Part shown: positions 10,301 to 11,553 of the stretch, piece by piece
Position numbering within the stretch: position 1 is the stretch's first letter
How the letters are laid out: each line of letters opens with the position of its first letter
Source of the DNA: Cyclobacteriaceae bacterium
GTDB taxonomy: Bacteria > Bacteroidota > Bacteroidia > Cytophagales > Cyclobacteriaceae
Assembly (NCBI GenBank): GCA_030589835.1
Contig: JAUUZS010000069.1
Span: 1-11,553 of the forward strand
Direction: 5' to 3'
Length of the DNA stretch: 11,553 nt
Program-made: the position numbers and the translations under genes
Notes under the pieces: generated by a model
The model's database searches: none
What the model was told of the DNA's origin: nothing
Seen by the model: the letters and a program-made list of their open reading frames with translations, nothing else

Positions 10301-10415
10301 CTCCTTCGCGTTATTTGTAGGGATTATCGTTGGTACCTATTCATCGGTATTTATTGCTACTCCTGCAGTGATTGATTTGGGAAAAGCTAAATACGGGCCA
10401 AAAGGGGATAGCTAG
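7398..10415 (+). CDS. secDF: Protein translocase subunit SecDF (SecD-SecF fusion)
   Basis: This 1005-residue inner-membrane protein uses the proton gradient to pull exported proteins through SecYEG from the periplasmic side. SecD part: first membrane segment 6-26, GLDLQGG (84-90), the large periplasmic P1 domain including RVDRFGTSQPNIQQLPG (195-211), NFTLEEAQDLANVLKAGALP (472-491), then five membrane segments (about 516-665) with GIVLTIGMSIDANVLIFERI (569-588). SecF part from about 690: a membrane segment, NFGVDFTGGRS (720-730), a periplasmic domain, and membrane segments about 838-988 with TIIGYSINDTVVVFDRIREN (900-919). The likely proton-path residues are D579 and D908, with R942 (NRT) as the partner arginine. 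A Ser/Thr/Asp/Glu-rich insert (about 270-320) interrupts the P1 domain. Fused SecDF is usual in Bacteroidota. The ATG at 7398 has no Shine-Dalgarno sequence. A strong terminator follows. Confidence 0.97.
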   Translation: MKNQGFVVFLTIIVTMLCLYYLSFTFISNSVQKKAIAYASDESGNVDFGKKQTFLDSAWNEPVYNLLGIEYTYKDIKETELGLGLDLQGGMHVTLEISPVDIIKGLSGNNDDADFLAALERANELQRSSQEDYVSLFQGAFNEISGGEKLAPIFANAANRDKDISFQSTDDEIIKLIKDEVEQAVDRSFNILRTRVDRFGTSQPNIQQLPGTGRIQIELPGVENRERVRKLLQGVAKLEFWEVMNLYDQELSGPLSAINTKLANEDRLRAAALDSESGEEGTASTIPQTDDLSSLLDSGDSTTTASADSTVAGALDSLVNTQISEFFTMIRYPQGLVNLKDTTKINRILERMMKGDLKGLIPPTVRFLWDVHATVSADGEEVLPLYAIKTGRGGKALLTGEVVTDARQSYDERMAPAVSMSMNNTGARIWKRVTGEFALDNRRIAIALDDYVQSAPGVNSEIPGGQSIITGNFTLEEAQDLANVLKAGALPARTRIVEEAVIGPTLGQEAQVQAIKSIVAGLLIVVFFMIFYYAKGGMVANVALLFNIFFILGILAQLNAALTLPGIAGIVLTIGMSIDANVLIFERIREELKNGASLLSAISAGYSKAYSSIIDANVTTFITGIILFMLGQGPVKGFATTLMIGIACSFFSAVFITRVIITRMTRKGDNSKVSFATPFSKSLLSNMNFDFLSKRRFAYIGSISFITSGLILIFIQGGLNFGVDFTGGRSYIVAFNSPVVASELKVELTNDFQKSGTEVKTYGSNNVLKVTTSYLVNDESAEADATVEKALIEGITAMTGLSYIEDDSKVDDQHFTISGSSKVGATIADDITTSSLESIIFALIAIFLYILIRFKKWQFSLGAIFALFHDVLVVISAFAFARLFGKAFEVDQVFIAAMLTIIGYSINDTVVVFDRIRENLAIRPHEKAIDTFNLSINTTMNRTVITSFTTLIVVLILLIFGGEVLRGFSFALFVGIIVGTYSSVFIATPAVIDLGKAKYGPKGDS

Positions 10416-10468: not shown

Positions 10469-10508
10469 AAAAGCCTTTTCGGAACATGGATTCCGGAAAG
10501 GCTTTTTT
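10469..10508. terminator. Strong bidirectional terminator between secDF and the HU-HIG gene
   Basis: A 16-bp stem (10469-10484 with 10491-10506; core AAGCCTTTTCGGAA and TTCCGGAAAGGCTT, one G-T wobble) encloses the loop CATGGA. The plus strand ends in six T (10503-10508), and the minus strand reads CTTTTC after the stem on the other side. It lies between two convergent genes and should stop transcripts from both, more efficiently on the plus strand. Confidence 0.93.
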
Positions 10509-10517
10509 AATGTGGAA

Positions 10518-10895
10518 CTAGACTTTCTCAAATATGGCTTTTGCGATTTTCTCTTTTAGGGCGTTGCCGGGGATAAAAATTATTTTTACGTTTTTTATCA
10601 TACCCACATGAAAGGATTCAGGAATTTCGGCCCCTTCGCCGTTAAGGGACAGGCGCAAGGAACCAAGATCGCCCAGACTGACTGTAAGCCCATCCAATAA
10701 ATAGTTAGGAATCTGATCTGCCAGATTATCTAACACACTGCTTATATCACCTCTATTAAGCGCTGATTTCTGTTCAAGATCAAGTGCAATATCCCTGAAC
10801 GATTTCCTGCCTTTGCTCACGTGGGTTGCATAATGCCTTTTGGGCGCCGTGCTACTCTTGGCAAAGCCTCGCTCTACTAGTTTGTATCGTATCAT
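10518..10895 (-). CDS. HU-family DNA-binding protein, HU-HIG type (histone-like)
   Basis: This 125-residue nucleoid-type protein is predicted to bind and bend DNA as a dimer. The N-terminus IRYKLVERG, the basic HYATHVSKGRKSFRDIALDLE (21-41), the helix NRGDISSVLDNLADQIPNYLLDG (47-69) and the strand segment VSLGDLGSLRLSLNGEGAE (72-90) match the HU-HIG subfamily common in Bacteroidota. The C-terminus (102-125: NVKIIFIPGNALKEKIAKAIFEKV) has a strand followed by a basic helix. The subfamily extends the 90-residue HU core at the N-terminus, which explains the length. It is convergent with secDF and shares its terminator. No Shine-Dalgarno sequence precedes the ATG and no good TTTG-N19-TAnnTTTG promoter was seen upstream. 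The palindrome array lies about 100-250 bases upstream and could control it. DNA targets are unknown. Confidence 0.88.
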   Translation of the reverse strand: MIRYKLVERGFAKSSTAPKRHYATHVSKGRKSFRDIALDLEQKSALNRGDISSVLDNLADQIPNYLLDGLTVSLGDLGSLRLSLNGEGAEIPESFHVGMIKNVKIIFIPGNALKEKIAKAIFEKV

Positions 10896-10996
10896 AATAG
10901 TTTTGTTTGGTTCCGGATTAGTGCGTAAACAACATTTCCTTTAGTATATATTACTCTATGATCAGAGGATTTGTTTCAAATGATCAGTATAAAAAG

Positions 10997-11151
10997 TTTT
11001 ATTCACCGCGGTAACCAATTACAAACGTTACTAAGAAAATATTTGTTCACCACGGTGACCAAATAATTTCATTACTATAAAAATATTTAATTACCGTAGT
11101 AATAAAATATATCCGATATAATCATTTTTTGTTTGTTCACTGACCGGCATT
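10997..11151. repeat. 44-bp-phased array of 24-bp imperfect palindromes
   Basis: There are three 24-bp units at 10997-11020, 11041-11064 and 11085-11108, with centres at 11008/9, 11052/3 and 11096/7, so exactly 44 bp apart. Unit 2 has arms ATTTG-N-TCACC and GGTGA-N-CAAAT. Unit 3 has ATTT-N-ATTAC and GTAAT-N-AAAT. Unit 1 is less regular, with TTCACCGCGGTAACC at its core. The 20-bp spacers also match: 11021-11040 and 11065-11084 share TTACTA and AAAAT at the same offsets, 13 of 20 positions. A shortened copy, TTTGTTCACTGACC (11132-11145), is centred at 11140, again 44 bp on, with the middle five bases missing. This looks like a tandem array of operator-type sites for a dimeric DNA-binding protein. 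Confidence 0.75.
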
Positions 11152-11178
11152 CATCTCTTTCGTGTTGATTTTCTATAG

Positions 11179-11258
11179 AACTCTTCAGGGATTCACTTGC
11201 TAATGCCACTACATTATTGATATCAAAGTTAAATCGAGCCTGAAACCCTTGAAGAGTT
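11179..11258. repeat. Long interrupted inverted repeat (80-base stem-loop)
   Basis: The left arm AACTCTTCAGGGATTCA (11179-11195) pairs with the right arm TGAAACCCTTGAAGAGTT (11241-11258), with one bulged base and one mismatch, around a 45-base loop. The loop contains the perfect palindrome TTGATATCAA (11217-11226). It could be the folded leader or an RNA upstream of the 11360 gene, or a remnant of a small mobile element. No flanking target duplication was seen. Confidence 0.6.
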
Positions 11259-11359: not shown

Positions 11360-11553
11360 ATGCATACTGTAGAAACAACTTTTAAAATGTGCTATACTGA
11401 TCAGCAATACGTTCAGGCAAAAGCATATGTTGAAGACATGAAGAACCACAAAGATCGTGTGTTTTGGATCGGAAAGGAAGGAAAAAGTGACAGCGAATTG
11501 ATTCTTGGACACATCGCACACAAAATCCTTTCTGGTTTTTATAATGCCTATGA
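11360..11553 (+). CDS. Start of an unrecognised gene, cut by the window end
   Basis: An open frame begins at ATG 11360 and continues without a stop for 64 codons to the end of the window. AAAAAGG lies just before the ATG but too close for an ordinary Shine-Dalgarno, and the frame is closed upstream by a TAA at 11333. The visible part begins MHTVETTFKMCYTDQQYVQ and continues with AKAYVEDMKNHKDRVFWIGK and SELILGHIAHKILSGFYNAY. It is soluble-looking, with charged and helical segments and no signal peptide or recognisable motif. An internal ATG ten codons in (11387) is an alternative start. It is divergent from the HU-HIG gene and shares its upstream region with the palindrome array. The function cannot be inferred. 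Confidence 0.6.
   Translation, partial: MHTVETTFKMCYTDQQYVQAKAYVEDMKNHKDRVFWIGKEGKSDSELILGHIAHKILSGFYNAY

Follow-up and report, generated by a model that had tools for sequence, protein, structure and literature searches.

Palindrome arrays with a 22-bp period often accompany HU-HIG genes of Bacteroidota and are candidate DNA targets of the adjacent HU-fold proteins

Introduction

Repeated palindromic protein sites close to the gene for the protein that binds them are found in ParB/parS systems, iterons and phage multi-operator regions. We use these as a working analogy for the palindrome arrays described here. Unlike ParB/parS and iterons, the array in our window (the whole stretch of 11,553 nucleotides that was analyzed) has no partition or replication gene alongside as far as the window extends, and a genome may carry several paralogous pairs of gene and array with differing cores.

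The gene next to the array encodes an HU-HIG protein. HU expansions in Bacteroidetes were reportedly described by Burroughs et al. in 2017, and are said to have been given a role in mobile-element conflict or in partition. The HU-HIG clade (PF18291) belongs to the HU/IHF superfamily, the likeness consisting in a small protein that binds DNA and has both the HU fold and beta-arms. DNA binding by HU is described as sequence-unspecific in an excerpt of PMC5683647; unlike the HU of that excerpt, the HU-HIG gene family considered here goes with palindrome arrays that are paralogue-specific. A further likeness is to REP elements with RAYT transposases (PMC12306157), which are short intergenic palindromes tied to one gene family and with copies elsewhere. 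The arrays described here differ from these in being tandem and phased at 22 bp, in having few sites per core, and in being linked to a protein with the HU fold. Among the matches listed in a search of the open-access literature, with subscription papers outside its scope, there was no account of HU-HIG and palindrome arrays and no reported DNA target of an HU-HIG protein.

Results

The window is a Bacteroidota fragment. Among the genomes searched, its SecDF is closest to those of six MAGs, part of which carry the label Cyclobacteriaceae, with 78-83% identity. Near the end of the window, secDF (ending at 10415) is convergent with the HU-HIG gene, which encodes a PF18291 protein of 125 aa at 10518..10895 on the minus strand and is the proposed binder of the array. 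The start of a small conserved gene is found at 11360..11551 on the plus strand; this gene is truncated at the end of the window (11553), and its visible part has no match in Pfam. These three genes are the neighbors of the array visible before the window stops at 11553, and no replication or partition gene is among them. A transposase domain was absent from the four window proteins scanned, the following gene being truncated by the window end. A terminator-like hairpin with T-rich tails was read by eye at 10469..10509, between the convergent secDF and HU-HIG genes, and is absent from the computed scan; it is perhaps a terminator shared by the two genes. A second inverted repeat, with 15-nt arms that are 87% complementary and 50 nt apart, lies downstream of the array at 11179-11258.

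The array contains three even palindromes exactly 44 bp apart, with centers at 11008.5, 11052.5 and 11096.5, as the sequence-only reading had described. A repeat search delimits three tandem 44-nt units at 10992..11123, with 100, 70 and 61% identity to the first unit. Palindrome 1 (10997..11020, core TTCACCG/CGGTAA) has 7 of 12 arm pairs complementary, palindrome 2 (11041..11064, ATTTGTTCACCA/CGGTGACCAAAT) has 10 of 12, and palindrome 3 (11085..11108, ATTTAATTACCG/TAGTAATAAAAT) has 9 of 12. Measured from the HU-HIG start codon, the first unit begins 97 bp upstream and the three sites lie approximately 100-215 bp upstream. The 44-bp step was correctly equated with about 4.2 helical turns. A fourth copy in the same phase had also been proposed; read by eye it is a degenerate TTTGTTCA-C-TGACC at 11132..11145 from which the central bases are missing. 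The half-sites GTTCA and TGACC are present on either side of base 11140, but palindromy in phase is not (1/12 at center 11140.5), as if the center of this copy had been lost.

We compared the array with shuffled sequence. The tandem repetition is far beyond chance: in 1000 dinucleotide-shuffled versions of the intergenic region, its self-similarity at lag 44 (44, 60 or 88 positions) was never matched. Palindromy alone is modest and each palindrome is ordinary: the best single palindrome (10/12) was equalled in 25 of 300 shuffles, and an equally spaced triple this good (spacing 25-100) appeared in 3/300 with arms of 12 and in 1/300 with arms of 11, the corresponding numbers at shorter arms being 5/300 (arm 10) and 33/300 (arm 9). 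Palindromy is poor at the positions halfway between the palindromes (2, 5 and 3 of 9). It had also been argued that paired changes in unit 3 suggest selection for symmetry. When unit 3 is compared with unit 2 in register, numbering from the center, one true double change is found (pair 5, from C-G to T-A), but the claim was otherwise overstated: pair 7 changes from a mismatch to a pair, pairs 2 (C-G to C-A) and 8 (G-C to A-A) are lost, and pair 1 is a mismatch in both units. The comparison of TCACC with ATTAC on which the claim was built is out of register by one base, and the paired-change argument for symmetric selection within the window array is weak. A CRISPR array was considered and rejected, the units being merely 61-70% alike to the first and spacer bases being shared between units. 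Searches of the intergenic region against phage and plasmid DNA gave only short matches at the level of chance.

The window HU-HIG protein matches the PF18291 profile with 88 bits (cut-off 26.2). Its structure is predicted with a pLDDT of 93.9 from 102 sequences (pLDDT 50 from 6 sequences) as an HU fold with an extra N-terminal part. Residues 31-118 of the model align with HU structures and residues 1-125 with the best fold match, 4fmr, a putative DNA-binding protein of Bacteroides vulgatus; 4fmr is not among the matches listed by the sequence profile search with the same protein. An initial protein search found five homologues with 62-91% identity and a profile search found 484, the best 120 of which include Draconibacterium and Prolixibacteraceae proteins at 58-63% identity (63% for Draconibacterium orientale); over the named organisms in general, Draconibacterium among them, the range is 58-64%. 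No relatives were found in the viral contigs searched. HU-HIG genes are numerous in some Bacteroidota, with up to 8 scored loci per genome.

Conservation in close relatives, on which the sequence-only reading had staked its proposal, was not seen at the secDF locus. In the relative L002, 322 bp separate secDF from the next gene, compared with 944 bp in the window; at this L002 locus tblastn with the window HU-HIG gave no match and no array was seen. The same query had no match (E 1e-3) in 80 SecDF loci, some of which end a few hundred bases past secDF (194 downstream in L001, 337 in L004). Relatives of the 11360 gene lie downstream of secDF, 322 bp away in L002 and approximately 5 kb away in L003, and no comparable array was seen upstream of either. 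A search with the single palindrome gave scattered matches with 2-3 mismatches in all six relatives, and no array was noticed. By these sequence comparisons, HU-HIG and its array look like a variable, added block at the secDF locus. Because HU-HIG itself is variably present, the informative comparison is across HU-HIG loci rather than across secDF loci.

Among the loci scanned for 44-bp triples, only L088 and L112 were flagged, both of which are HU-HIG gene loci. Window-like palindromes paired at 44 bp, which had been suggested as a search pattern for related genomes, showed no overall enrichment there (10 of 295 genomes of the family, against about 20 with a reversed control pattern). One of the 10 pattern matches, G013:C233, is a 22-bp array with the window core TCACCGCGGTGA, located upstream of an HU-HIG frame, and further HU-HIG loci examined after it have 22-bp palindrome arrays with differing cores. 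Arrays were scored as three palindromes with arms of 9 and a spacing of 20-24 bp, plus neighbor identity (maximum 63). The threshold of 42 was calibrated on random stretches: 520 kb of shuffled sequence yielded no cluster at or above it, and an equal length of real DNA, taken from three genomes, yielded 2. The core of one of these 2 (L154) is CATAGCTATG, which is also the core of an HU-HIG home array in that genome (L221).

Arrays scoring at least 42 were present at 40 of 60 HU-HIG loci (PF18291, related Bacteroidota), spread over 16 of the 19 genomes. Left unscored were two fragments (G076:C24) and two matches that are long and divergent (G100:C1:4041723 and G022:C1:1279064). The same score was reached by 2/156 random 3.3-kb windows, drawn from three genomes only (G038, G078 and G100; Fisher p 5e-26 against the HU-HIG loci), by 0/80 windows from the outer flanking DNA of HU-HIG genes, and by none of the 11 canonical HU loci scored out of 12 (G022:C1:2033611 was left out). 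The contrast holds at other thresholds: at 38 the numbers are 48/60 against 7/156 random windows, and at 46 they are 26/60 against 1/156. Note that the loci above 42 include weak or simple-repeat cases (L085, part of L090, L175 and L218), and that L091, L095 and L101, just under it, are clear by eye. In a phylum-wide sample of 61 genomes, whose kinship is not given and from which the strong place G337:C8 was left out, 3 of 7 strong HU-HIG loci passed, two of them (L276 and L277) being closely related with 88% identical proteins; a fourth scores 39, and none of 23 weak HU-like loci reaches 40. The 80 SecDF loci (1.24 Mb) contained 6 passing clusters in 4 loci. The suggestion that the adjacent gene for a DNA-bending protein matters is strongly supported across loci as regards the association of arrays with HU-HIG genes; binding of the arrays by HU-HIG we infer from sequence.

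Tandem repeats were also observed in other settings. One of the SecDF loci, L028, holds three of the passing clusters, at 14, 4243 and 9944. In G107, the longer and more divergent HU-domain matches L332 and L334 (frames of 253 and 262 aa) have tandem repeats scoring 51 and 47. The phage-like contig L143 (IMGVR_UViG_3300031994_002064), found by a TTGACCGCGGTCA-core pattern, has four tandem 22-bp palindromes of the TTGACCGCGGTCA type at 1688-1766, just upstream of a gene for a CHC2 zinc-finger primase-like protein; the contig also encodes an integrase and an AAA ATPase, and no HU-HIG gene was noticed by eye.

We next examined the period and position of the arrays. An exact-period scan from 18 to 48 found 22 bp at 33 of the 60 loci, 44 bp at 14, and any other period at no more than 5. 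Within 43 arrays, 110 of 138 spacings are 22 bp, with a detector that permits 20-24. The class has a 22-bp period; the 44 bp that had been taken as the basic unit is a multiple of it. Twenty 20-kb stretches chosen from long contigs contain 21 HU-HIG genes; 17 arrays lie within 1 kb of such a gene (21.9 kb of noncoding DNA) and 1 lies at 1-10 kb (48.9 kb of noncoding DNA), the latter count being 2 at a threshold of 40. Relative to HU-HIG, 32 of 44 arrays lie upstream and the other 12 downstream, with a median distance of 234.5 bp. Their palindromy is imperfect, with a mean of 6.2/9 pairs in 181 units, and the innermost three pairs are complementary in 70, 74 and 85% of these units.

The window array shares the proximity of this class, lying within approximately 1 kb of an HU-HIG gene. 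It scores 34 at a spacing of 20-24 bp and has no run of three or more palindromes at 22 bp; its spacings of 44 and 44 bp are a multiple of 22. When scored at 44 bp it reaches 43, at the palindrome center and in one other register, a value equalled by 19/60 HU-HIG loci and 1/156 random windows. The G013 array with core TCACCGCGGTGA (22 bp) lies 655 bp upstream of its HU-HIG reading frame, and the same core is found on another G013 contig with spacings of 44, 22 and 22. Among the HU-HIG proteins with arrays, that of G013 is the nearest to the window protein, at 34.9% over 87 residues compared, the next being at 34.4%. The HU-HIG frame of G013:C233 (L144:4408-4799) appears by eye to be broken near its start, and the array is intact. 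We are fairly confident, from these sequence features, that the window array belongs to the HU-HIG-linked class of 22-bp arrays as a sparse member with a 2 x 22 bp step.

We also examined the cores of the arrays. The core tends to differ by HU-HIG paralogue, for example AAACCACGTGTGGTTT, AAAAGATACGTATCTTTT, ATAAGCGCTTAT and TCTAGCGCTAGA, and in several cases among the genomes searched the home core reappears in arrays at further intergenic sites of that genome. G038 and G109 each contain 16 AGCGCT pairs; the 18 other genomes counted contain 0-2. CACGTG pairs number 6, 19 and 5 in the three genomes with such a home array (G006, G078 and G112), those of G078 falling in about ten places; they also occur in G042 and G107 and once in G082, and are absent from 14 others. 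For G042 and G107 it was predicted that an HU-HIG gene would lie next to the CACGTG arrays; none was there, and the prediction failed. Reading by eye after this failure revealed a decayed CACGTG-like array alongside the HU-HIG gene of G042:C203. In G107, which has no known home array of the CACGTG core, there is an orphan array of CACGTG pairs with 21-bp spacing (G107:C2:103673-103804). Exact ATAGCTAT pairs are found in three places in G109, one of them beside HU-HIG, and 0 were found in G038 (control 1) despite a home array of that kind. Exact ATACGTAT pairs are found in G070 only; G097, which has a home core of that type, contains none. Where counted, the sites per core number from one to about ten. 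The remote arrays inspected are intergenic, some upstream of genes and some between convergent genes, the latter position not fitting simple operators.

Core similarity correlates with HU-HIG identity across genomes (r 0.17, 0/2000 permutations; 52 loci, 1264 pairs), and does so below 60% identity (r 0.11, 20/2000 permutations). This covariation of protein and core is weak, and common descent contributes part of it; similar proteins can have unlike cores, as in L089 and L107 with 74% identity. Core sharing among paralogues within a genome is not higher than across genomes (0.307 against 0.318), which is what paralogue-specific targets would give, common descent contributing here also. Five HU-HIG residue columns are associated with the core at z above 3, and were set aside as confounded by kinship.

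Discussion

We propose that the adjacent HU-HIG protein has the window array as its home DNA target, and give this explanation as a whole a probability of about two in three. Each HU-HIG homodimer would recognize a single palindrome, the contacts probably being made by its beta-arms and N-terminal strands. With a phasing of 22 bp, or about two helical turns, the dimers could stack on one face of the DNA and cooperatively form a bent nucleoprotein segment. Expression of each HU-HIG protein may be set by its home array, and the remote arrays may be places where HU-HIG acts as a private regulator or nucleoid organizer. In the window, three sites would be left at every second 22-bp step, with the fourth, decayed, beyond them.

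Alternatively, the array might be the operator of another dimeric regulator that controls HU-HIG or the 11360 gene, HU-HIG then being regulated and not the binder. The intergenic position of the window array and the 32 of 44 arrays upstream of HU-HIG would suit an operator, but cores vary by paralogue while the linked gene family is constant, 12 of the 44 arrays are downstream, and the relatives of the 11360 gene in L002 and L003 are without such an array upstream; we consider this explanation unlikely. It is quite unlikely that the arrays are REP-like or selfish repeats gathering in large intergenic gaps around HU-HIG, with the protein carried along as a passenger or helping them to spread. 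Such repeats would account for arrays at diverse intergenic sites away from HU-HIG, such as the CACGTG sites of G078, and for the resemblance of the secDF locus to one with an added block (944 against 322 bp). The enrichment near HU-HIG holds, however, per noncoding kb (17 arrays in the 21.9 kb nearest the genes, 1 in the 48.9 kb beyond), and the number of sites per core is low for the cores counted. To our knowledge a fixed 22-bp step is also not a feature of REP elements.

The remaining alternatives concern how the repeats arose or whether they act as RNA. A single palindrome as good as the best one in the window is not rare in shuffled sequence (25/300), and spacer bases are common to the units, so that one chance palindrome might have been copied three times and then have diverged. 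Neutral tandem duplication of this kind leaves unexplained why palindrome arrays with 22- and 44-bp steps recur next to HU-HIG genes, and we think it very unlikely. A role of the repeats as RNA hairpins, in a terminator, riboregulator or processing site, is hardly credible: the RNA fold of 10985-11155 has a z of -1.98, with 6/200 shuffles equally stable, but Rfam gave no match at the gathering threshold, the symmetry of the HU-HIG arrays reaches the center and so leaves little space for a loop, and it is not evident what a fixed helical step would do in RNA.

A wider interpretation can be offered tentatively, one that may well prove wrong. Bacteroidota might possess a diversifying DNA address code in which each HU-HIG paralogue is sequence-specific and reads its own 22-bp-phased array, beside its gene and elsewhere, building private nucleoprotein segments that organize the chromosome, silence genes or mark foreign DNA. 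The arrays provide a concrete, testable candidate target for each HU-HIG paralogue, and offer a route to finding functions from DNA alone. If the interpretation is true, a fold regarded as unspecific would become a family with switchable specificity.
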